Origin: Manis javanica
Lineage: Eukaryota; Chordata; Mammalia; Pholidota; Manidae
Assembly (NCBI RefSeq): GCF_040802235.1
Contig: NC_133158.1
Span: 41,358,001 to 41,422,000, forward strand
DNA length: 64,000 nt
Reading direction: 5' to 3'
A program made the position numbers and the translations under genes. The notes beneath the pieces were generated by a model. The model saw nothing but the letters and a program-made list of their open reading frames with translations. It was not told where the DNA came from and did no database searches. Positions 22,061-48,370 of this stretch are shown piece by piece. How positions within the stretch are numbered: position 1 is the first letter of the stretch; the number at the start of each line of letters is the position of its first letter.

Positions 22061-24029
22061 TATGTTGTTGTGATTTTTAAATTGTTAAGAATATATTGTC
22101 ATATAGAAAAGTCAGGCTATGGAGAGGTTCCATGTTAAAGGACAGGTGACAGCTAAATGCAGCCTCTGACCCTAGATCAGATACTGCACCTTGAGGAAAG
22201 AAAACGGCAACAGGGACAATTTTGGGTCATTTAATAAAAGTTGAATGCTAATGATAGCTTAGGTAAAGGTATAATACTAATTTTTCTGGGGTTGACAACC
22301 ATGGATTGTGGGTCTACAAGATATTATCCCTGTTCTTGGGACGCATCCCTGAAGCTTCAAGGAGGGAAAGGCTGTGATGTATGTGCCCTTCCCTCAGCGG
22401 CTCCAAGGATGCCCGCTGTGTTTATGGTCCACATTGTGAGCCATTCGGGGAAATGTCAGCAGTAAGTAAGTCTGAGTAAAGGACACATGGGGATTCTTTG
22501 TATTATTTTATTCATGCAATGTTTTTAAAGTTTTCCTTATTTCCAAATAAAAAGCATATTGTAAAGTGGAAATATTACTTAAATGTTTACCAAGCCAGAA
22601 GCATCCTGAGGTGCACTTGAGTGCATGGCAGTGGGGTTTGAGGACCACTGCACCCCGTGAGATCTGAAGTGTGGGCGTTTGAGATGAATTTCCCAGGAGT
22701 TTGATTTTAATGAAAAGGGCGGGGCACTATTTCAGCTCAGAGAGAATTCTTGTTTCTGGCTTATAGAAATGTGGGCCAGGGAGATCAGCATGGGGAGTGG
22801 GACAAAAGAGTAAGTGTCAGGAAGAGATTCTATGACGTGACCACAGTTCACTGTGGCTCAGGTGAGGTGATATCTGACTGTATCATGCCCACATCCTCAC
22901 AGAAAACAGGGGTAAACGGAGAGCCAGGGAAGAGGTGACAAGGGTGCGGCAGGGCTCGGGAGCCAGAGAAGGGCTGCGAAGGCCCAAGCACTAGAGCAGG
23001 GTGCTGTGGCCTGGCCGGGAGCGGCTTCACTCACACGGGTGCTGGGCAGGACCACGGCCTCAACGGGAAGGATGAAGTTGCCTCTGTCTTGAAGCCTGGC
23101 AGGAGTGATGCAGTGGGGAAGTAAATGATCCCACCTGTCTCCTCCTGTCCTCATTTTGCTTGGGACCCACCATTGTCCAAACCAACAGGAAGCCATAAGC
23201 AAGGGAATTTGATGCTGTGGGTGTTGGCTTCAGCCTCTTGGGGCATAGAGCAGGGTGGAGAGCAGATGGGAAGGGCATTTGGGGCCTGTGCAGAGTACAG
23301 GGGGCTGGGAAGGAAGGACGTGCTACAGAGCAGGGCCCACAGGTGGGAGGAGGCCGAAGAGAGAGGGCCAGGCCCTGCCTGCGTGAGTGTGCCACACCTG
23401 GCCCCAGGGAGATCAGCGTGAGGAGTGGGATCTCTCACGCTGTGTTGGTGTGCTGACACGTGAAAAGCAGAGTCATCCCATCCTCTGGTGTGGGAAATAC
23501 TTTAACAGTTCATATGAGTTCAGCAAAATGATGTGTTTTTCTTGTGATAGTGTTTAAAGTCAGTGAATTTAGTCCATAAAGCAGTAGGTATCTGTCAGGA
23601 CTACTGGGTGGTGGTGGGGCTGTGAAGAGATTGGGTCTGTGCCTCTCCTGTGACAACTGGCAGGGCGACTGGGGAACTCCAGCGCCCAGGTGTGATGAGG
23701 CAGTGGTGCAGGGCAGTGCCCAGCGGGGCTGGGATTCCCGGCATAGGACACATTCCTGGAGACACATGTTCCCTTCCTCTTGTAAAAGATACTCCAGGGG
23801 CCTGTCAGTTGTTTCAAAAGAGTAGTTTTGGAAGATCTTTGGCAGTGCAGGAAAAAAATACTGTTTCCATATTCTGGCTCCCACTTTTCTATTCTCAAAT
23901 ATTTGACAGCTAATTAAAGTGTTATTTGGCTGGCTTAGAGTAGACACTAGGATTTCAAATGCATTTAAGCCATTTAACTAAGGTTTTAAAAAAGTGAACC
24001 CTGGAATATTCTCATTTTTTTCACTCACA
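22061..24029. other. HSF2BP intron 2, middle
   Basis: I see no gene and no confidently nameable repeat. The GC-rich part at 22900-23460 has several overlapping open frames in both directions with no family resemblance. Confidence 0.4.
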
Positions 24030-29950: not shown

Positions 29951-31184
29951 AGCATGGATTCAGCTGTAGTTTTGTAGGTGCTTTTTATCAAGTTGAGGAA
30001 TTTCCCCTCTATTCCTGATCTGCTGAGAATTTTTTTCATGAGTGAGTGCTGGTGTCCAGTGTTTAGAGCGTTTCCATCACATGTCTGCTGTAGCCCTTGC
30101 TTTCTTGCCCAGCCGTAAGCAATTACACATCTGCTTTCTGTCTGTATAGATTTGCCATTTTTGAGTATTTTTTAGAAATGGAATCATGCAATATGTGGTT
30201 TTTAGTGTCTATTGTAATGTTTGGAATTTCCTTCAGGTTAGCATACATCAGTTGTTTGTTCCTTTTTATTGCTGGATACTATTCTATTGGATGGATATAC
30301 CACATTTCTTTACCCATTCATCAGCTGATGGACATTTAGATTATTTCCAATTTTTGACTATTAGGAATAAGGCCACTATGAACATTCATATACAAATCTT
30401 TGTTTGGACCTATATTCTGATTTTTCTTGGAGAGATACCTAGCTGTAAAAGTGCTGAGTCATAGAATGAAATATGGTTAACTTTCTGAGAAGCTTCCCAA
30501 CTGTTTACCAGAGTGAGTGTACCATCCTTCCTTCCACCCAGCAATGTTTGAAGGTCCTATTGTTTCCATATTCTTGTGAACACTTGGCATTGTTGGCCTT
30601 GTGGATTATAGCCATTTTAGTGGGTGTGTAGTGATATCTCACTGTGGTTTTAATTTGCATTTTCCTCATGACTAATTATGTTGAGTTTTTTCCATGTGTT
30701 TATTACTTGTTTATTTCCTTTGGTTAAATATTTAAGTCTTTTGCCTATTTTTAATTGGATTATTTTATTTTTGAGTTATAAGAGTTCTTTTTATATTGTG
30801 CATACAAGTCATTTTTTAGATATGATTTAGAAACTTTTTTAGTTTGTGGCTTGTCTTTTCACTTAATGGTATCTTTTCAAAGGTAAAAGTTAAATTTTGA
30901 TGAAGTTGAATTTTTTTCTAATGGATCATTATTTTGTTATATATCTAAGAAATATTAGCTTAACCCCTGGTCATAGAGATTTTCTTATAGAAATTTTACA
31001 TTTAGGTCCACAAGTCATCATAATATTTTTCACCTATGAATATTAGCATCATTTGTTGAAAAGACTATACTTTTTCTATTGAATTGCCTTGGTACCTTTA
31101 TTAAAATTGATTGCCATAAATGTCAATATTTCACTGATCCATATGTCCATCCTTATGCCAATACCACACTGGTTTGATTTCTGC

Positions 31185-31191
<7 letters not shown>

Positions 31192-31215
<24 letters not shown>

Positions 31216-32850
31216 TGAGAGGGCATCTCTCATATTTATTGATCAAATGGTCGTTAACAACAATAAAAATCAGTATAGGGGGGTCAACGCTCAATGTACA
31301 ATCATTAATCCATCTCAAGCCAAATCTCGTCAGTCTCCAATCTTCTGAAGCATAACGAACAAGTTCTTACATGGTGAACGAATTCTTACATAGTGAATAA
31401 ATTCTTACATGGTGAACAGTACAAGGGCAGTCATCACAGAAACTTTCGGTTTTGATCATGTAATATGACCTATAAACAATCAGGTCAAATATGAATATTC
31501 GTTTGATTTTTGTACTTGATTTATATGTTGATCCCACATTTCTCTTATTATTATTATTTTTATTTTTAATAAAATGCTGAAGTGGTAGGTAGATGCAAGA
31601 TAAAGGTAGAAAACATAGTTTAGTGCTGTAAGAAGGCAAATGTAGATGATCAGATGATCAGGTGTGTGCCTATGGACCAAGTATTAATCCAGGCTAGACA
31701 AGGGCAGCAAGACATCCACGGATGCAGAAGATTTCTCTCAAAGCAGGGGGCGTGAGGTTCTGAGCCTCACCTCTGTTGATCCCCAAATTCTCACCTGATG
31801 GCCCCCCTGCGACTGTGCCTGTCTTAGGTTGTTCCTCCCTTGAGGAATCTTACCCGTCTCTGGCTAACCAGTCATCTTCCGGGGCCATACAGGGAAATGT
31901 AAAGTTGGTAAGTGAGAGAGAAGCCATATTGTTTGCAAAGGTTAGCTTTTTACTTCTTTGCAGATTTATGCCCTGTGGCTTCTATACCCAGCACTTGTCT
32001 CGAGGTATCTTTACCACCTGGAGGAATTATGATACTCGGTAAATTCGATATGAGGCACGAATTCTATTTAAGGGTTGTAATTAGGAAGGAAGAAGAAAAG
32101 CTATAGATGTAGCATATGAAGGAAACATGGGAGGATTGATTATTTCTTTGACATATCTTCTTGTAGAGTACCTTAAGTATGTATAGGTTTTAAACTACTA
32201 ACTAATTTGTACACACATATTAACATAATAGGAATACGGTGACATAAACAAAGCAAATCTATAATTACCATCCATCTCCAGTGAAGACAAGAAAACCATT
32301 TAGGCACCCTAGGCATTTGTGAAAATTTATCTATGATATGATGGATATTGTCCAACTGTACTTGAACCATCAGACAAATTAAAGCAGCCCATTTCTGGGA
32401 TCTGTTCACATCCCATATGTTCTTTTAACCATAGATAGTCTATAGTCATGAGATTTTGGAGTGCTACAACTTGCACCCCTCCCAACTCCTGGTTGAGTTC
32501 CAACAGTACAGATCCGGTCAAATTCGTTGTCTCACTGTATGCACATGCCAGCCTAGACATCTCCCTCCTCATTCTTATGGCAAGTTCAGGAGACGGTGGG
32601 CTGGATGCAGCCACAACCGCAGCATCGTCCGGATCCCTGTGGAGGCTTTTTGATGATCATCCCCCGGCACAAGTCCTCCAGAGAGTGCTGATGCCGGAAG
32701 CTCCTCCTCATATCGTATCTTAGTTCATTTTCTGGGTATCCAAGCTAGGCCCTGATCTTCTGCGTAGAAACAAACAGACCCTTTGCCCACACTTTGACAT
32801 GCCCTCTATACCACTGTGCAGAACTCATTGGAGGTCAGCACACAGTAACT

Positions 32851-32884
<34 letters not shown>

Positions 32885-33155
32885 AAGAGAAAGGAATATT
32901 ATCAGAAAAGAGTACCTCCATAACTGATCATCTGACACCCTTTAAGTGATCAACATTAAGGATATTTAAAGCATGCGTTGATCTTTGATTTACCAATAGT
33001 TTTATCCTGTTAAGGAGTAATCCCCCTTTTCTTTCTTTCTTCCTTTTTTTTTTTTTTTTTTTTTAATTTTTAATCTACACTTACATGAAGAATACTATGT
33101 TTACTATGCTCTCCCCTTTATCAGGTCCCCCCTAACAACCACATTACGGTTACTG
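31192..33155 (-). mobile_element. 5'-truncated young LINE-1: chimeric 3' module only
   Basis: TCTGCAGCTTTT occurs at 31180-31191 and again at 33156-33167, a 12-bp target-site duplication. The insert begins (3' end) with a T-run (A-tail) and GAGAGGGCATCTCTC and stops within the native LINE-1 3' UTR. It therefore contains no coding LINE-1 sequence, only the retrovirus-derived module and some native 3' UTR. It is collinear with 34259-36207 with only scattered mismatches by eye. Internal A-tracts (T on plus) are at about 32852-32880 and 33043-33064. Confidence 0.93.
32327..32614 (-). pseudogene. Retroviral env transmembrane-subunit-like remnant (copy 1)
   Basis: A 95-codon open frame inside the LINE-1 3' module. 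It shows the layout of a retroviral TM ectodomain: a leucine-rich heptad stretch, an ALQN...IDYL segment, then a C-X6-G-C-F motif where family members have C-X6-C-C. It ends in a stop soon after. A second frame (32173-32409) continues with a tryptophan-rich and hydrophobic stretch typical of the membrane-proximal and anchor region. It is a broken fossil carried as 3' UTR; no function is inferred. Confidence 0.6.
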
Positions 33156-33560
33156 TCTGCAGCTTTTATAGTAAGTTTTTGTTTTTGTTTTTGAAATCAG
33201 GCAGTGTTAAGTCCTCTAACATTGTTTTTCTTTTTCAAGCTTTTTTTTTTGCTTTTTCATATGAATTTAAGGATCAGATTATCATTTTGTACAGAAAAAT
33301 CTTTTGAAATTTTTACAGGGATTGCATTGAATCTATTGATCAGTTTAGAGAGAACACTGTCTACCAGTATGGAGTCTTCCAGTCCATGAAAATCCATGAA
33401 CATGATGTATCTTCCAATTTGTTTAGCTCTTCTTTACTTTTTCTCAGTAATGCTTTGTAGTTTTTACTGTACAGGTCTTGAATGACTTCTCTAAGTATTC
33501 CTAAATATTTTCTTATTTTGATGATGCTATAAATGGAATTATTTTATTTGAGTTTCTTTT

Positions 33561-34188: not shown

Positions 34189-34258
34189 GGTTTTTGTATT
34201 TTTATTTATTTATTTATTTTATTTATTTTATTTTTTATTATTTTTTATTTTTTATTTT

Positions 34259-34581
34259 GAGAGGGCATCTCTCATATTTATTGATCAAATGGTTGTTAAC
34301 AACAATAAAATTCAGTATAGGGGGGTCAACGCTCAATGTACAATCATTAATCCATCTCAACCCTAATTCTCGTCAGTCTCCAATCTTCTGAAGCATAACG
34401 AACAAGTTCTTACATGGTGAACGAATTCTTACATGGTGAATAAATTCTTACATGGTGAACAGTACAAGGGCAGTCATCACAGAAACTTTCGGTTTTGATC
34501 ATGCATTATGACCTATAAACAATCAGGTCAAATATGAATATTCGTTTGATTTTTGTACTTTATTTATATGTTGATCCCACA
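34259..34581 (-). repeat. Partial retroviral LTR forming the LINE-1 3' end
   Basis: On the minus strand this unit starts TGTGGGATC right after the purine run AGGAGAAA, as a betaretrovirus-type LTR follows its polypurine tract. It ends at the poly(A) site GATGCCCTCTC. An AATAAA lies about 17 nt upstream of the tail. Only U3 and an R-like end are present and there is no U5, as expected if a transcript was cleaved at the LTR's own poly(A) site. Confidence 0.6.
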
Positions 34582-35372
34582 TTTCTCCTATTATTATTAT
34601 TATTTTTATTTTTAATAAAATGCTGAAGTGGTAGGTAGATGCAAGATAAAGGTAGAAAACATAGTTTAGTGCTGTAAGAGGGCAAATGTAGATGATCAGA
34701 TGATCAGGTGTGTGCCTATGGACTAAGTATTAATCCAGGCTAGACAAGGGCAGCAAGACATCCACGGATGCAGAAGATTTCTCTCAAGGCAGGGAGGGTG
34801 AGGTTCTGAGCCTCACCTCTGTTGATCCCCAAATTCTCACCTGATGGCCCCCCTGCGACTGTGCCTGTCTTAGGTTGTTCCTCCCTTGAGGAATCTTACC
34901 CGTCTCTGGCTAACCAGTCATCTTCCGGGGCCATACAGGGAAATGTAAAGTTGGTAAGTGAGAGAGAAGCCATATTGTTTGCAAAGGTTAGCTTTTTACT
35001 TCTTTGCAGATTTATGCCCTGTGGCTTCTATGCCCAGCACTTGTCTCGAGGTATCTTTACCACCTGGAGGAATTATGATACTCGGTAAATTCGATATGAG
35101 GCACGAATTCTATTTAAGGGTTGTAATTAGGAAGGAAGAAGAAAAGCTATAGATGTAGCATATGAAGGAAACATGGGAGGATTGATTATTTCTTTGACAT
35201 ATCTTCTTGTATAGTACCTTAAGTATGTATAGGTTTTAAACTACTAACTAATTTGCACACACATATTAACATAATAGGAATACGGTGACATAAACAAAGC
35301 AAATCTATAATTACCATCCATCTCCAGTGAAGCCAAGAAAACCATTTAGGCACCCTAGGCATTTGTGAAAAT

Positions 35373-35660
35373 TTATCTATGATATGATGGATATTGTCCA
35401 ACTGTACTTGAACCATCAGACAAATTAAAGCAGCCCATTTCTGGGATCTGTTCACATCCCATATGTTCTTTTAACCATAGATAGTCTATAGTCATGAGAT
35501 TTTGGAGTGCTACAACTTGCACCCCTCCCAACTCCTGGTTGAGTTCCAACAGTACAGATCCAGTCAAATTCGTTGTCTCACTGTATGCACATGCCAGCCT
35601 AGACATCTCCCTCCTCATTCCTATGGCAAGTCCAGGAGATGGTGGGCTGGATGCAGCCAC
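35373..35660 (-). pseudogene. Retroviral env transmembrane-subunit-like remnant (copy 2)
   Basis: A 95-codon frame nearly identical to the one at 32327-32614, with the same heptad stretch and the same C-X6-G-C-F motif. The first cysteine of the expected pair is replaced by glycine in both copies, so the change predates their spread. The frame at 35219-35455 carries the membrane-proximal part. It is an old, broken viral remnant inside a LINE-1 3' UTR. Confidence 0.6.
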
Positions 35661-37536
35661 AACCGCAGCATCGTCCGGATCCCTGTGGAGGCTTTTTGAT
35701 GATCATCCCCCGGCACAAGTCCTCCAGAGAGTGCTGATGCCGGAAGCTCCTCCTCATATCGTATCTTAGTTCATTTTCTGGGTATCCAAGCTAGGCCTTG
35801 ATCTTCTGCATAGAAACAAACAGACCCTTTGCCCACACTTTGACATGCCCTCTATACCACTGTGCAGAACTCATTGGAGGTCAGCACACAGGAACTGCTT
35901 TTTTTTTTTTTTTTTTAATTAAGAGAAAGGAATATTATCAGAAAAGAGTACCTCCATAGCTGATCATCTGACACCCTTTAAGTGATCAACATTAAGGATA
36001 TTTAAAGCATGCGTTGATCTTTAATTTACCAATAGTTTTATCCTGTCAAGGAGTAATCCCGCTTTTCTTTCTTTCTTTCTTTCTTTTTTTTATTTTTATT
36101 TTTATTTTTAAAAAAATTTTTAATCTACACTTACCTGAAGAATACTATGTTTACTATGCTCTCCCCTATATCAGGTCCCCCCTAACAACCACATTACGGT
36201 TACTGTCCATCAGCTTAGCAAAATGTTGTAGAGTCACTACTTGTCCTCTCTGTGTTGTGCAGCCCACCCTCCCCTTTCTCCCTCCCCCCCATGCATGCTA
36301 ATCTTAATACCCCCTTCTTCTTCCCCCCCCATCCCTCCCTGCCCACCCATCCTCCCCAGTTCCTTTCCCTTTGGTACCTGTTAGTCCATTTTTGGGTTCT
36401 GTAATTCCGCTGCTGTTTTGTTCCTTCAGTTTTTCCTTTGTTCCTATACTCCTCAGATGAGTGAAATCATTTGGTATTGCTCTTTCTCCGCTTGGCTTAT
36501 TTCACTGAGCATAATACTCTCCAGCTCCATCCATGTTGCTACAAATGGTAGGATTTGCCCTCTTCTTATGGCTGAGTAGTATTCCATTGTGTATATGTAC
36601 CACATCTTCTTTATCCATTCATCTACCGATGGACATTTAGGTTGCTTCCAATTTTTGGCTATTGTAAATAGTGCTGCGATAGGGGTGCATCTGTCTTTCT
36701 CAAACTTGATTGCTGCGTTCTTAGGGTAAATTCCTAGGAGTGGAATTCCTGGGTCAAATGGTAGGTCTGTTTTGAGCATTTTGATGAACCTCCATACTGC
36801 TTTCCACAATGGTTGAACTAATTTACATTCCCACCAGCAATGTAGGAGGGTTCCCCTTTCTCCACAGCCTCGCCAACATTTGTTGTTGTTTGTCTTTTGG
36901 ATGGCAGCTATCCTTACTGGTGTGAGGTGATACCTCATTGTAGTTTTAATTTGCATTTCTCTGATAATTAGCGATGTGGAGCATCTTTTCATGTGTCTCT
37001 TGGCCATCTGTATTTCTTTTTTGGAGAACTGTCTGTTCACTTCCTCTGCCCATTTTTTAATTGGGTTATTTGTTTTTTGTTTGTTGAGGCGTGTGAGCTC
37101 TTTATATATTCTGGACGTCAAGCCTTTATCGGATCTGTCATTTTCAAATATATTCTCCCATGCTGTAGGGTTCCTTTTTGTTCTATTGATGGTGTCTTTC
37201 GCTCTACAGAAGCTTTTCAGCTTAATGTAGTCCCACTTGCTCATTTTTGCTGTTGTTTTCCTTGCCCGGGGAGATATGTTCAAGAAGAGGTCACTCATGT
37301 TTATGTCTAAGAGGTTTTTGCCTATGTTTTTTTCCAAGAGTTTAATGGTTTCATGACTTACATTCAGGTCTTTGATCCATTTTGAGTTTACCTTTGTATA
37401 TGGGGTTAGACAATGGTCCAGTTTCATTCTCCTACATGTAGCTGTCCAGTTTTGCCAGCGCCATCTGTTGAAGAGACTGTCATTTTGCCATTGTATGTCC
37501 ATGGCTCCTTTATCAAATATTAATTGACCATATATG

Positions 37537-37643
37537 TTTGGGTTAATTTCTGGGGTCTCTAATCTGTTCCACTGGTCTGTGGCTCTGTTCTTGTGCCAGT
37601 ACCAAATTGTCTTGATTACTATGGCTTTGTAGTAGAGCTTGAA
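37537..37643. repeat. Source copy of a 107-bp intra-ORF2 duplication
   Basis: Identical, base for base by eye, to 38614-38720 in the same orientation, offset exactly 1077 bp. This copy sits where it belongs in ORF2 (downstream of the reverse-transcriptase core), as the collinear older LINE-1 at 17567-17671 shows. Confidence 0.9.
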
Positions 37644-38613
37644 GTTGGGGAGTGAGATCCCCCCTACTTTATTCTTCTTTTTCAGGATTGCTTTGGCTAT
37701 TCGGGGTCTTTGGTGTTTCCATATGAATTTTTGAATTATTTGTTCCAATTCATTGAAGAATGTTGCTGGTAATTTGAGAGGGATTGCATCAAATCTGTAT
37801 ATTGCTTTGGGCAGGATGGGCATTTTGACGATATTAATGCTTCCTAGCCATGAGCATGGGATGAGTTTCCATTTATTAGTGTCCCCTTTAATTTCTCTTA
37901 AGAGTGACTTGTAGTTTTCAGAGTATAAGTCTTTCACTTCTTTGGTTAGGTTTATTCCTAGGTATTTTATTCTTTTTGATGCAATGGTGAATGGAATTGT
38001 TTTCCTGATTTCTCTTTCTATTGATTCATTGTTAGTGTATAGGAAAGCTACAGATTTCTGTGTGTTAATTTTGTATCCTGCAACTTTGCTGTATTTCGAT
38101 ATCAGTTCTAGTAGTTTTGGAGTGGAGTCTTTAGGGTTTTTTATGTACAGTATCATATCATCTGCAAATAGTGACAGTTTAACTTCTTCTTTACCAATCT
38201 GGATTCCTTGTATTTCTTTGTTTTGTCTGATTGCCATGGCTAGGACCTCCAGTACTATGTTAAATAACAGTGGGGAGAGTGGGCATCCCTGTCTGGTTCC
38301 CGATCTCAGAGGAAATGCTTTCAGCTTCTCGCTGTTCAGTATAATGCTGGCTGTGGGTTTATCATATATGGCCTTTATTATGTTGAGGTACTTGCCCTCT
38401 ATTCCCATTTTGCTGAGAGTTTTTATCATGAATGGATGTTAAATTTTGTCAAATGCTTTTTCAGCATCTATGGAGATGATCATGTGGTTTTTGTCTTTCT
38501 TTTTGTTGATGTGGTGGATGATGTTGATGGATTTTCGAATGTTGTACCATCCTTGCATCCCTGGGATGAACCCCACTTGGTCATGGTGTATGATCCTTTT
38601 GATATACTAGCTA

Positions 38614-38720
38614 TTTGGGTTAATTTCTGGGGTCTCTAATCTGTTCCACTGGTCTGTGGCTCTGTTCTTGTGCCAGTACCAAATTGTCTTGATTACTATG
38701 GCTTTGTAGTAGAGCTTGAA
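38614..38720. repeat. Inserted copy of the 107-bp duplication
   Basis: Lies in the ORF2 region that should read through ...[11 protein letters not shown]. It replaces a few bases (the TTGAATTCGG-type word kept at 18596) and is bordered by short filler (CTAGCTA and TATATACTG on the plus strand). Perfect identity to 37537-37643 means the event is recent or homogenised. Confidence 0.9.
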
Positions 38721-40567
38721 TATATACTGTTTGCTAATATTTTATTGAGTATTTTTGCATCTACATTCATCAGGGATATTGGTCTGTAATTTTCTTTTTT
38801 GGTGGGGTCTTTGCCTGGTTTTGGTATTAGGGTGATGTTGGCCTCATAGAAAGAGTTTGGGAGTATTCCCTCTTCTTCTATTTTGTGGAACACTTTAAGG
38901 AGAATGGGTATTATGTCTTCTCTGTGTGTCTGATAAAATTCCGAGGTAAATCCGTCCGGCCCCGGGGTTTTGTTCTTGGGTAGTTTTTTGATTACTGTTT
39001 CAATTTCTTTGCTCGTAATTGGTTTGTTTAACTTTTGTGTTTCTTCCTTGGTCAGTCTTGGGAGGTTGTATTTTTCTAGGAAGTTGTCCATTTCTTCTAG
39101 GTTTTCCAGCTTGTTGGCATATAGGTTTTCATAGTAGTCTTTAATAATTCTTTGTATTTCTGTGGAGTCTGTTGTGATTTTTCCATTCTCATTTCTGATT
39201 ATGTTGATTTGTGTTGACTCTCTTTTTCTCTTAATAAGTTGGGCTAGAGGCTTATCTATTTTGTTTATTTTCTCGAAGAACCAGCTCTTGGTTTCGTTGA
39301 TTTTTGCTATTGTTTTATTCTTCTCAATTTTGTTTATTTCTTCTCTGATCTTTATTATGTCCCTCCTTCTGCTGACTTTAGGCCTCATTTGTTCTTCTTT
39401 TTCCAGTTTTAATAATTGTGATGTTAGACTATTCATTTGGGATTGTTCTTCCTTCTTCAAGTGTGCCTGGATTGCTATATACTTTCCTCTTAAGACTGCT
39501 TTCGCTGCATCCCACAGAAGTTGGGTCTTAGTGTTGTTGTTGTCATTTGTTTCTGTATATTCCTTGATCTCTATTTTGATTTGTTCATTGATCCATTGAT
39601 TATTTAGTAGCATGTTGTTAAGTCTCCATGTGTTTGTGAGCCTTTTTGTTTTCTTTGTAGAATTTATTTCTACTTTCATACCTTTGTGGTCTGAAAAATT
39701 GGTTGGTAGAATTTCAATATTTTGGAATTTACTGAGGCTCTTTTTGTGAGCTAGTATGTGGTCTATTCTGGAGAATGTTCCATGTGCACTTGAGAAGAAT
39801 GTATATCCTGTTGCTTTTGGATGTAGAGTTCTATAGATGTCTATTAGGTCCATCTGTTCTAGTGTGTTGTTCAGTGCCTGTGTGTCTTTACTTATTTTCT
39901 GCCCGGTGGATCTATCCTTTGGGGTGAGTGGTGTGTTGAAGTCTCCTACAATGAATGCATTGCAGTCTATTTCCCTCTTTAGTTCTGTTAGTATTTGCTT
40001 CACATATGCTGGTGCTCCTGTATTGGGTGCATATATATTTAGAATGGTTATATCCTCTTGTTGGACTGAGCCCTTTATCATTATGTAGTATCCTTCTTTA
40101 TCTCTTGTTACTTTCTTTGTTTTGAAGTCTATTTTGTCTGATATTAGTACTGCAACCCCTGCTTTCTTCTCACTGTTGTTTGCCTGAAATATGTTTTTCC
40201 ATCCCTTGACTTTTAGTCTATGCTTATCTTTGGGTTTAAGGTGAGTTTCTTGTAAGCAGCATATAGATGGGTCTTGCTTTTTTATCCATTCTATTACTCT
40301 ATGTCTTTTGATTGGTGCATTAAGTCCATTTACATTTAGGGTGACTATTGAGAGATATGTACTTATTGCCATTGCAGGCTTTAGATTCGTGGTTACCAAA
40401 GGTTCAAGGTTAGCTTCTTTAGTATCTTACTGCCTAACTTAGCTCGCTTATTGAGCTGTTATATACACTGTCTGGAGATTCTTTTCTTCTCTCCCTTCTT
40501 ATTCCTCCTCCTCCATTCTTCATATGTTGTGTGTTTTGTTCTGTGCTCTTTTTAGGGGTGCTCCCAT

Positions 40568-41458
40568 CTAGAGCAGTCCCTGTAGGATGCCCTGTAGAGG
40601 TGGTTTGTGGGAAGCAAATTCCCTCAGCTTTTGCTTGTCTGGGAATTGTTTAATCCCGCCATCATATTTAAATGATAGTCGTGCTGGATACAGTATCCTT
40701 GGTCCAAGGCCCTTCTGTTTCATTGCATTAAGTATATCATGCCATTCTCTTCTGGCCTGTAGGGTTTCTGTTGAGAAGTCTGATGTTAGCCTGATGGGTT
40801 TTCCTTTATAGGTGACCTTTTTCTCTCTAGCTGCCTTTAAAACTCTTTCCTTGTCCTTGATCCCTGCCATTTTAATTACTATGTGTCTTGGTGTTGTCCT
40901 CCTTGGATCCTTTCTGTTGGGAGTTCTGTGTAATTCCATGGTCTGTTCAATTATTTCCTCCCCCAGTTTGGGGAAGTTTTCAGCAATTATTTCTTCAAAG
41001 AGGCTTTCTATCCCTTTTCCTCTTTCTTCTTCTTCTGGTATCCCTATAATATGAATATTATTCCTTTTGGCTTGGTCACATATTTCTCTTAGTGTTGTTT
41101 CATTCCTGGAGATCCTTTTATCTCTCTCTATGTCAGCTTCTATACGTTCCTGTTCTCTGGCTTCTATTCCTTCAATGGCCTCTTGCATCTTATCCATTCT
41201 GTTTATAAATCCTTCCAGGGATTGTTTCACTTCTGTGATCTCCTTCCTGACATCTGTGATCTCCTTCCGGACTTCATCCCACTGCTCTTGCATTTTTCTC
41301 TGCATCTCATCCCATTGCTCTTGCATTTTTCTCTGCATCTCTGTCAGCATGTTCATGATTTTTATTTTGAATTCTTTTTCAGGAGGACTGGTTAGGTCTG
41401 TCTCCTTCTCAAGTGTTGTCTCTGTGATCTTTGTCTGCCTGTAGTTTTGCCTTTTCAT
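40568..41458 (-). CDS. LINE-1 ORF1 (RNA-binding coiled-coil chaperone), intact
   Basis: A 296-residue ORF1p, close to the family's usual 300-370. ORF1p trimerises through an N-terminal coiled coil and coats LINE-1 RNA. Visible order: basic N-terminus, coiled coil (about 30-125), RRM-like core (REICDQAKRNNIHIIGIPEE at about 125-145), then the C-terminal domain (RLTSDFSTETLQARREWHDI near 225-245). Within the coiled coil the 11-residue unit EMQRKMQEQWD is tandemly doubled (residues 40-61) and the 7-residue VRKEITD/E is doubled (63-76). No stop or frameshift. It ends 168 bp before the ORF2 ATG. Confidence 0.93.
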   Translation of the reverse strand: MKRQNYRQTKITETTLEKETDLTSPPEKEFKIKIMNMLTEMQRKMQEQWDEMQRKMQEQWDEVRKEITDVRKEITEVKQSLEGFINRMDKMQEAIEGIEAREQERIEADIERDKRISRNETTLREICDQAKRNNIHIIGIPEEEERGKGIESLFEEIIAENFPKLGEEIIEQTMELHRTPNRKDPRRTTPRHIVIKMAGIKDKERVLKAAREKKVTYKGKPIRLTSDFSTETLQARREWHDILNAMKQKGLGPRILYPARLSFKYDGGIKQFPDKQKLREFASHKPPLQGILQGLL

Positions 41459-43052
41459 GGTGATAGAGATAGTTTGAAGAGCTGGTACAAGTGACCGCTG
41501 GAAGAGCTTCCCTTCTTGTTGGTTTGTGGCCTTCCTCTCCTGGGAGAATAGCGACCTCTACTGGCTTGTGCTGGGCAGCTGTGGGCAGACAGGGCTTCTG
41601 CTTCCTGCCCGGTTGCTATGGGGTTTATCTCTGCTGTTGCTGTGGGCTTGGCCTGGCTGGGGCTGCGCCTCCAAAATGGTGGAGCCCCGTTGGAGGGGGA
41701 GCGGCCGGGAGGCTATTTATCTCCGTAAGGGGCCTCTGTGCTCCCTGCTGCCCAGGGGGTTAGAGTGCCCAGAGATCCCCAGATTCCCTGCCTCTGGTCT
41801 AAGTGACCTGTCCTGCCCCTTAAGACTTCCAAAAAGCACTCTCCAAACCAAAACAACAACAGCAACAATGAGAGAGGGAACAGAAAGAATAAAAAAGGAA
41901 AAAACACGCGATTTTTTTTTTTGTCCTCAGTTGCCGGTCCCAGGCACCCGCTCACTGGTCCTGCTGCCCTGTCTCCCTAGCACCAGGGTCCCTGTCCCTT
42001 CAAGGCTTCCAAAAACCACCCACCCACTGGTCCCGCAGGGAAAGAACACTCAATATTCTTTGTCCTCAGGTGCTGGTCCCAGGCACCCACTCACCAGTCC
42101 CGCCGCCCTGCCTCCCTAGCACCGGGGTCCCTGTCCCTTTAAGGCTTCCAAAAAGCACTCCCCAAAAAGAGAGAAAAAAAGGGGAAAAACGCGCGATTTC
42201 CTCCGTCCTCAGGTGTCGGTCTCAGGCACCCGCCCACCGGTCCCACAGGGAAAAACGCGGGATATTCTTTGTCCTCAGGTGCCGGTCCCAGGCACCCGCT
42301 CACCAGTTCCGCCGCCCTGCCTCCCTAGCACCAGGGTCCCTGTCCCTTTTAGGCTTCCAAGAAGCTCTCGCAAAAAAGAGAAAAAAAAAAGGGGAAAAAC
42401 ATGCAATTTCCTCTGTCCTCAAGTGCCGGTCTCAGGCACCCACCCACCGGTCCTGCAGGGAAAAACGTGGGGTATTCTTTGTCCTCAGGCACCGGTCCCA
42501 GGCACCGGCTTACCAGTCCCGCCGCCCTGCCTCCCTAGCACCGGGGTCCCTGTCCCTTTTAGGCTTCCAAAAAGCGCTCGCCAAAAAGAGAAAAAAAAAG
42601 GGGAAAAACGTGCAATTTCCTCCGTCCTCAGGCGCCGGTCTCAGGCACCCGCCCGCCGGTCCCGCAGGGAGAAATGCAGGATATTCTTTGTCCTCAGGCG
42701 CTGGTCCCAGGCACCTGCTCACCGGTCCTGCCACCCTGCCTCCCTAACAACGGGGGCCCGTCCCTCTAAGGCTTCCAAAAAGCACTCGCCAAAAAAAAAC
42801 CGCTCCGGTTTCTTTCCACCCGCCGGGAGCCGGGGGGAGGGGCGCTCAGGTCCCGCGGGGCCGGGGCTTGTATCTTACCCCCTTCGCAAGGCGCTGGGTT
42901 CTTGCAGGTGTGGATGTGGTCTGGATGTTGTCCTGTGTCCTGTGGTCTCTATTTTAGGAAGATTTTTCTTTGTTATATTTTCATAGCTCTATGTGTTTTT
43001 GGGAGGAGATTTCCACTGCTCTACTCACGCCGCCATCCTGGCTCCGCCCCTC
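41459..43052 (-). promoter_or_regulatory. LINE-1 5' UTR with tandem monomers
   Basis: CpG-rich and about 1.6 kb long. Recurrent GGTCCCAGGCACC anchors on the plus strand lie at 41936, 42075, 42284, 42494 and 42703, giving spacings of 139, 209, 210 and 209 bp: at least three ~209-bp monomers plus a partial one. Each monomer contains a shorter internal echo (GGTCTCAGGCACC). The arrangement resembles the promoter monomers of mouse LINE-1. The 5' terminus carries the YY1-like site. Confidence 0.85.
43029..43050 (-). promoter_or_regulatory. YY1-like and Sp1-like sites at the LINE-1 5' terminus
   Basis: On the minus strand the element begins with GGGGCGGAGC and then CAGGATGGCGGC. The second matches the YY1 core (ATGGCGGC) that sets transcription start in human L1, at the same distance from the 5' end. 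It supports this copy being truly full length. Confidence 0.75.
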
Positions 43053-43067
43053 GGTTTTTGTATTTTT

Positions 43068-43866: not shown

Positions 43867-44016
43867 GAGAAATTGGCTCTTAGACAGCAGCTGAATGAAG
43901 CAAAGCAGCAACTCCTGCAGCAGGCGGAATATTGTACAGAAATGGGAGCGGCAGCTTGCACCCTCCTGTGGGGCGTCTCCAGCAGCGAGGAAGTTGTGAA
44001 AGCCATTTTGGGAGGT
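43867..44016 (+). CDS. HSF2BP: HSF2BP exon 4
   Basis: Encodes residues 98-147: EKLALRQQLNEAKQQLLQQA, then EYCTEMGAAACTLLWGVSSS and EEVVKAILGG. The end of the coiled coil and the start of the globular part are virtually unchanged from human. The acceptor is GGGTTTCAG and the donor GGT/GTAAGT; 150 nt, phase 0 at both ends. Confidence 0.97.
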
Positions 44017-47521: not shown

Positions 47522-47538
47522 TGTGGTGCTGTGTTTTT

Positions 47539-48353
47539 TTTGTTTTTTGTTTTTTTTGAGAAGGCATCTCTCATATTTATTGATCAAATGGTTGTTAAGA
47601 ACAATAAAATTCTGTATAGGGGGGTCAATGCTCAATGCACAATCATTAATCCATCTCAAGCCTAATTCTCGTCAGTCTCCAATCTTCTGAAGCATAACGA
47701 ACAAGTTCTTACATGATGAACGAATTCTTACATAGTGAATAAGTTCTTACATGGTGAACAGTACAAGGGCATTCATCACAGAAACTTTCGGTTTTGATCA
47801 CGCATTATGAACTATAAACAATCAGGTCAAATATGAATATTCGTTTGATTTTTATACTTGATTTATATGTGGATCCCACATTTCTCCCTTTATTATTATT
47901 ATTATTTTTATTTCTAATAAAATGCTGAAGTGGTAGGTAGATGCAAGATAAAGGTAGAAAACATAGTTTAGTGTTGTAAGAGAGCAATTGTAGATGATCA
48001 TGTGTGTGCCTGTAGACTATGTGCTAATCCGAGCTCGACAAGGGCAATAAAACATCCACGGATGCAGAAGCTTTCTCTCAAAACAGGGGGGGTGAGGTTC
48101 TAAGCTTCACCACTGTTGTTCCCCGATTTCTCACCTGATGGCCCCCCTGCAACTGTGCCTGTCTTAGGTTGTTCCTCCTTTGAGGAATCTTACCCGTCTC
48201 TGGCTAACCAGTCCTCTTCCGGGGCCATACAGGGAAATGTAAAGTTGGTAAGTGAGAGAGAAGCCATATTGTTTGCAAAGGTTAGCTTTTTACTTCTTTG
48301 CAGATTTATGCCCTGTGGCTTCTATGCCCAGCACTTGTCTCGAGGTATCTCTA
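47539..48353 (-). mobile_element. 5'-truncated young LINE-1: terminal part of the chimeric module
   Basis: TGTGGTGCTGTGTTTTT at 47522-47538 recurs at 48354-48370, a 17-bp target-site duplication. The insert starts GAGAAGGCATCTCTC after a T-rich tail and ends at the equivalent of about 35056 in the full-length copy. It therefore holds only the LTR-like end and the spacer before it, not the env-like frame. It is more diverged from the other two copies than they are from each other. Confidence 0.92.
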
Positions 48354-48370
48354 TGTGGTGCTGTGTTTTT

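Follow-up and report, generated by a model that had tools for sequence, protein, structure and literature searches.

A LINE-1 lineage of the pangolin Manis javanica with a retroviral 3' end, probably acquired by 3' transduction

The 3' ends of LINE-1 (L1) elements are usually described as native and as weak at polyadenylation, and SVA elements are non-autonomous and lack the ORFs of L1. In L1 3' transduction, as set out in the part of the source used here, transcription passes the element's own poly(A) site and stops downstream, and the offspring have the transduced 3' segment in common; a human transduction family of 14 members is there called the largest found to date (PMC6425141). The SINE-R portion of SVA, in the relevant part of another account, stems from the env 3' end and the 3' long terminal repeat (LTR) of HERV-K10, followed by an A-tail (PMC12593883). 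Chimeras of L1 with foreign RNA in one insertion are treated in a passage that also speculates on new 5' untranslated regions (UTRs) (PMC13174262), and the Chinese pangolin endogenous retrovirus (ERV) ERV-Beta is characterized, in the sections drawn on here, by a betaretroviral gag-pol, a CX6CC-type env, a 387-nt LTR and a lysine-type primer-binding site, PBS-Lys (PMC12584738). Here we describe an L1 lineage of Manis javanica that ends in retroviral sequence, starting from a full-length copy in a 64,000-nt stretch of contig NC_133158.1 (41,358,001 to 41,422,000, forward strand; assembly GCF_040802235.1). This whole stretch is termed the window; coordinates given alone are window positions, and L numbers denote loci.

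A retroviral segment at the 3' end of a full-length LINE-1

The window element is a full-length L1 on the minus strand (43052-34259) that includes, in L1 sense, a module of about 1.8 kb located between the L1's own A-rich tail and the final A-tail, the placement of a foreign segment in a 3' transduction. L1 and module are enclosed jointly by one target-site duplication (TSD), the identical 15-mers GGTTTTTGTATTTTT at 34189-34203 on the 3' side and 43053-43067 on the 5' side, with an A-rich tail at 34204-34258 (minus). A preliminary description made from the sequence alone had noted an extra 3' segment of about 1.9 kb that older local L1s lack, and the segment is present; the older window L1s at 16.2-20.9 kb and 44.4 kb are without it. 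Upstream of the module, the native L1 3' UTR (36116-36452, minus; last motif 36116-36130) is homologous to these local module-less L1s, and it is followed by the former poly(A) tail of the L1, now internal (36068-36115, minus), which older copies have at the same position.

Read in L1 sense, the module begins with the end of integrase, continues with an env remnant in which the leader is fused to the transmembrane (TM) part with no surface (SU) part between them, and closes with the U3-R portion of an LTR, all on the minus strand. The C-terminal part of integrase occupies 35779-36067, with an internal A-run at about 35900-35917, and in older module copies is homologous to L051 and L049. The end of pol and the env leader remnant follow at 35691-35778 (homologous to L049, 1-217), and the joint at 35672-35690 stands where provirus L049 carries a 906-nt SU segment. 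The TM remnant spans 35218-35690; its frame is broken in the young subfamily and it is homologous to the TM of avian sarcoma/leukosis virus (ASLV). Next comes the retroviral 3' untranslated region from env to LTR (34582-35217), homologous to L045 and L047, in which a decayed polypurine tract adjoins U3. The U3-R segment itself (34259-34581), homologous to proviral LTRs that reach U5 in L045-L048, has its LTR-like start TGTGGG near 34581, as had been noticed before, and carries AATAAA at 34282-34277 (minus), 18 nt ahead of the A-tail and not about 17 as first given.

The TM assignment rests on a 109-aa minus-strand frame (35373-35702) that matches the ASLV fusion TM (PDB 4jpr, E 2.7e-7), bearing out the env TM-like frames of the preliminary description; the corresponding segment of L029, an older genomic copy, matches ASLV TM in PDB at E 2.2e-12. 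Pfam returned no family for the window TM piece and weak unrelated matches only for the older copy's TM frame. The integrase identity of the module start is settled by the proviral frame of L051 that spans the joint, because this frame matches PDB integrases at E 4.7e-5 to 1.2e-4, among them what we take to be the integrase of mouse mammary tumour virus. When integrase pieces of L1 copies were paired with two local class II integrases, the C-terminal piece of L033 gave z scores of 6.1 and 7.6 (0 of 1,000 shuffles as good) and that of L029 gave 4.0 (4 of 1,000) and 8.2 (0 of 1,000). Five other pieces were weak, their better pairing being equalled by 16, 18, 22, 37 and 71 of 1,000 shuffles and the other pairing by 120-559; for an L1 copy's first integrase piece, PDB gave a single unrelated match (E 0.72).

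Integrase, env TM, polypurine tract and U3-R thus stand in the order of the 3' end of a class II ERV, with proviral relatives that reach U5. The window copy itself has one truncated LTR, an A-tail and a 15-nt duplication, not the two LTRs and short duplication of LTR-mediated integration. The earlier proposal that the segment derives from env and LTR holds for the TM part and the LTR; its start is integrase and not env, SU is missing, and the first A-rich stretch is the former L1 tail. Likewise, the polypurine-like run is clear in the provirus, reading AAAAAAATAAGGGG in L045 and L047, and decayed in the L1 copies.

The module matches three places in the window only. The second insertion (31192-33155, minus) consists of the module plus 88 nt of the L1 3' end; it aligns over 31216-33157 at 96.8% identity, the match continuing for 88 nt beyond 36120 in the L1 3' end, and has its own TSD, TCTGCAGCTTTT, at 31180-31191 and 33156-33167. 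The third (47539-48353, minus) is 5'-truncated inside the module, aligns over 47557-48353 at 93% identity and lies between copies of TGTGGTGCTGTGTTTTT (47522-47538 and 48354-48370). All three show the TSD and A-tail of L1 insertion, with different duplications and the same terminal base, which confirms that the two further copies are independent insertions, as had been claimed.

Genomic copies, parent proviruses and the L1 body

A DNA search of the same assembly scored 40 of 667 candidates, and 20 of the 39 matches outside the window copy were fetched, together with L029 and L030. L1 is joined to the module in all 20 and in L029 and L030 likewise, and 13 of the 20 extend to the L1 5' end. The R end and A-tail were displayed for 17 of them and fall at the same point within a base; for L011, L013 and L028 the 3' limit is known from alignment ends only (34241, 34248 and 34232), L030 was fetched without its 3' end, and the module of L024 is internally deleted. 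The 20 copies amount to at most 18 independent insertions, as L022, L023 and L026 have a common 3' flank. In a separate protein search with TM, 150 of 30,591 candidates were scored, at 90-95% identity, and 12 loci were cut out, of which 10 extend into L1, L036 among them with a deletion that covers the joint, and two end inside the module. Within these samples, the check proposed with the preliminary description, for copies in which the module lies between native L1 3' UTR and an A-tail, came out in favour of its claim of an amplified family trait.

Short-pattern counts, which include segmental duplicates and second LTR pieces, place the R end followed by A6 (at most one mismatch, joined to L1 or not) at 24,022 sites of the genome, many more than chance would give, with none for the reversed-pattern control. 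The exact joint of L1 3' end, A-tail and integrase start occurs at 991 places (control 0), out of 2,515 that carry the L1 3' end motif. The copies with a common flank, L022, L023 and L026, lie at 164.0-166.1 Mb of C4, and on C1 copy pairs recur at a constant spacing of about 18 kb (2.46-2.48, 5.43-5.44 and 5.90-5.92 Mb); both are probably segmental duplications that inflate the copy counts.

In module distance (non-CpG Kimura two-parameter, leaving out the duplicates L022 and L026, the short L024 and the unused L030), the 19 young copies differ among themselves by 0.016 and the 12 copies chosen by TM score by 0.040; the two groups are 0.105 apart, and L029 stands at 0.136 from the young one. 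In L027 the ORF1- and ORF2-type frames are open over 339 and 1,289 aa, which suggests competence for retrotransposition. Because of these distances and open frames, we take the hybrid lineage to be old, yet recently active. Between the old and young subfamilies, 53 of 94 fixed differences fall within the first 400 of 1,265 aligned module positions, and 16 of the 32 in the TM part are A to G in L1 sense.

The preliminary description had called for a parent provirus in which env and LTR continue into U5, and such proviruses were found. The R end is followed by a base other than A at 58 places in the genome (reversed control 0). Most of these are CA-repeats; the CA runs begin at nearly one common base and are perhaps A-tails converted to CA repeats. 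Four of the 58, L045-L048, were fetched for their closely similar continuation. In L045 and L047 the end of env is followed by the 3' untranslated region, a clear polypurine tract, U3-R and U5; L046 consists of an LTR that lies within an L1 and shows a GAGGG duplication; and L048 is a 5' LTR followed by a primer-binding-like site, presumably of the lysine type, and gag (Pfam Gag_p24, E 1.6e-13). To an end motif, the proviral LTRs are about 394-413 nt long. The sequence that precedes L045 holds TM, an env frame of 413 aa that includes SU, and the leader and integrase (Pfam rve, E 5.1e-5, below the Pfam cut-off), so that this C11 provirus runs integrase, leader, SU, TM, 3' untranslated region, polypurine tract and U3-R-U5. 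A second provirus, L050/L047, has a different internal deletion, which extends from reverse transcriptase into env. The class II proviruses L043 and L044 were rejected as parents, their env being unrelated; L043 (288-2069) belongs to another class II ERV, in which an env frame of a different type is open over 594 aa and L1-module sequence lies downstream.

The C11 provirus and the older L1 copy L029 are 84-85% identical on both sides of the 906-nt SU segment that L029 lacks, and the SU-less joint is found in the window copy and in 10 of the 12 loci of the TM search, L032 and L037 having been missed by the motif. The TM frame is open over 164-175 aa in the older copies L029, L031 and L033-L035, reaching 175 aa with CX6CC in L029, and is interrupted in the young subfamily. 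Between subfamilies, dN/dS in this frame is 0.25, and fixed differences at codon positions 3, 2 and 1 number 15, 12 and 5. We make no claim of selection on the frame within L1, given that no clear codon-position pattern emerges and that the 12 "old" copies were picked by TM protein score; comparison of frames and fixed differences in old and young copies gave no evidence of TM acting as a protein in L1.

A separate feature of the C11 provirus is that its SU part (L049, 302-640) matches an immunoglobulin (Ig) V domain like those of SIRP-alpha, -beta and -gamma (PDB SIRPA, E 1.2e-12), within the one continuous 413-aa env frame; in Pfam it finds Ig_3 only, at E 0.0049, below the cut-off. The search with SU scored 150 of 612 candidate places. 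From sequence similarity, we read this as a host-like receptor domain within a retroviral envelope, and nothing relevant to it was found in the open-access literature searched.

In the body of the window L1, ORF2 (36453-40426, minus) carries endonuclease and reverse transcriptase domains (Pfam PF03372, PF00078), ORF1 (40568-41557, minus) carries RNA-binding domains (PF02994, PF17490), and the 5' UTR (41558-43052, minus) includes 3.7 tandem 209-bp monomers at 42017-42795, which we take to be a mouse-like promoter layout; the domains are those of the L1 class. The self-matching pattern of the 5' UTR is also seen in full-length fetched copies. ORF2 is interrupted near a 107-nt duplication (38614-38720 and 37537-37643, 100% identical and 1,077 nt apart) that is missing from the other fetched copies covering that place and is either an assembly error or a private template jump. 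An HSF2BP coding exon lies at 43867-44016 on the plus strand, less than 1 kb from the 5' end of the L1 (PDB 7ldg, E 5e-27).

Origin of the hybrid

The homology between module and provirus begins immediately after the former L1 tail, at ATT|AAAACGAAAAGGGGG of the provirus. The L1 endonuclease has TT|AAAA as its standard target, and TTAAAA occurs at only 4 of 4,142 scanned proviral positions, one of them the founding joint; the position of the joint therefore favours an L1 insertion in integrase, with a subsequent 3' transduction reaching as far as the LTR. We propose that the integrase gene of a class II, betaretrovirus-like provirus would have received a full-length L1 in its own orientation, and that the L1 transcripts may then have run beyond the native 3' end and A-tail to take in the rest of the provirus, the SU-coding part of env being lost during this readthrough or earlier. 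The R end of the provirus's 3' LTR would have been the site of cleavage and polyadenylation, and the hybrid RNA would have been reverse-transcribed as an L1 carrying a 3' transduction. Daughter copies would thus have inherited the retroviral poly(A) site, and the transduced segment would have become the heritable 3' end of an L1 lineage. In such a hybrid, promoter and proteins would come from the L1, the retroviral part would serve as the site at which the RNA is cut and tailed, and the L1 machinery would prime reverse transcription on the tail. From the uniform genomic 3' ends we infer that L1 uses the LTR poly(A) signal in cells, which supports the adoption of a retroviral poly(A) site put forward in the preliminary description. 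That an L1 inserted into a provirus, transduced its 3' end and spread to thousands of copies appears to us quite probable; that the founding step was an insertion and not a template switch we favour with less assurance.

Several observations weigh against this account. No L1 was found within a provirus with integrase on both sides, no separate search for a source locus having been made. The SU loss is not a plain canonical intron: canonical splicing was considered, as L050 has CTTTTAG before the right boundary, and rejected, the left boundary GGAATGAAG having no GT in three of four proviruses. PDB searches with the short integrase pieces from L1 copies reach integrase weakly or not at all; a C-terminal piece matches it at E 0.66-0.87, with an unrelated enzyme at 1.4. 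Beyond the looseness of short-pattern counts, 1,524 of the 2,515 L1 3' ends are without the exact module start, a mixture of mutated joints with what are probably, in part, module-less L1s. Finally, the founding junction is A-rich, a place that an RNA template switch, the main rival, would favour as well: L1 reverse transcriptase, copying a polyadenylated ERV RNA, could have switched at the A-rich AAAACGAAAAGG to the poly(A) tail of an L1 RNA and so produced the order L1, tail, ERV, tail in a single step, and the copy could have become a master. Behind the A-tail, 5 of the 20 loci (L010, L016, L019, L021 and L028) have a second, more diverged LTR piece of about 270-385 nt, which in four of the five begins at an A-rich tract; a single TSD encloses both pieces in L016 and L019, and similar second pieces occur in 2 of the 12 older-type loci (L033 and L037). 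The second pieces are 79-93% identical to the window copy and the first 96-98%, and slippage on one RNA was dropped as their source, as the second pieces are more diverged than the first. RNA template switches thus seem to occur at these loci, and a founding switch would account for the missing SU, provided that the ERV RNA had undergone its deletion beforehand. It would need no TT|AAAA, yet the joint is an exact endonuclease target that is rare in the provirus, and we regard a founding switch as rather unlikely, if well worth keeping in mind.

The presence of the module on all 20 fetched young copies is also what would be seen if it were simply an old L1 3' UTR, its retroviral look being due to chance or to an ERV that borrowed from L1. 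In the module, however, integrase, env TM and U3-R follow one another as in a provirus; beyond it the provirus itself includes the integrase core, SU and U5, and the primer-binding site and gag are present at a related locus; and the L1's own 3' end and A-tail stand upstream of a module that the local older L1s lack. This explanation is already refuted by the proviral counterpart, and we give it almost no weight. Hardly more credible is an independent, SINE-R-like processed ERV element that landed beside L1s by chance. Module-only copies do exist (47539-48353; L032, L040), but they fit 5' truncation of an L1-module unit, and neither the single L1-integrase boundary at 991 places, nor the 13 of 20 fetched copies that are full-length L1 plus module, nor the TSD of the window L1 enclosing both parts, fits chance neighbours. 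We retain L1 insertion into the provirus followed by 3' transduction as our working account.

Relation to known systems

We note that 3' transductions are usually described as passing accidents, and that one of them appears here to have become the permanent 3' end of an autonomous L1 lineage. The genome offers a natural test, with many dated copies for study, of whether a borrowed retroviral terminator alters L1 success, and it shows a possible route to SVA-like retroviral tails. It also calls for caution, in that env TM and LTR matches in this genome can be L1 tails and not retroviruses. More tentatively, and as the less likely outcome, we would suggest that the retroviral poly(A) site gave an advantage and that the lineage displaced L1s with native ends, so that the main L1 of this genome may now be a stable LINE-retrovirus hybrid with a long-working retroviral terminator and, for part of that time, an open TM frame.

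The open-access PubMed Central literature searched yielded no account of a lineage of autonomous L1s whose 3' end is retroviral. The examined parts of the pangolin ERV study report no L1 lineage with an ERV end (PMC12584738); the L1 inside a gamma ERV (Gamma.b9) described there concerns another ERV family and is a different case. The parent proviruses can be likened, by description, to the pangolin class II ERVs of those parts, ERV-Beta-Mpen and ERV-Alpha-Mpen, with LTRs of about 394-413 nt against 387 nt for ERV-Beta. The L1 chimeras resemble the pangolin element in combining L1 and foreign RNA in a single insertion, and differ in that the speculation there concerns new 5' UTRs; the main text of that paper, as far as covered, has "LTR" at five places and "endogenous retrovir" and "envelope" at none (PMC13174262).

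The pangolin module shares with SVA SINE-R the same retroviral parts and the same use of the LTR end. SVA, in the part of the source used, has hexamers, Alu-like and variable-number tandem repeat (VNTR) parts, whereas the pangolin retroviral end sits on an L1 with ORF1 and ORF2 (PMC12593883). In the window element both frames are present, and no hexamer, Alu-like or VNTR part was seen between ORF2 and the module. With L1 transduction families, to the extent that the cited part describes them, the pangolin lineage has in common that the L1 passed its own end and that its members share a transduced 3' segment. Unlike the human family of 14 members, it shows the exact joint at 991 places, carries the end of a provirus as its transduced part and spans at least three levels of divergence. 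The pangolin L1-retrovirus hybrid is, in these terms, a 3' transduction that is unusual in its scale, its permanence and its source.

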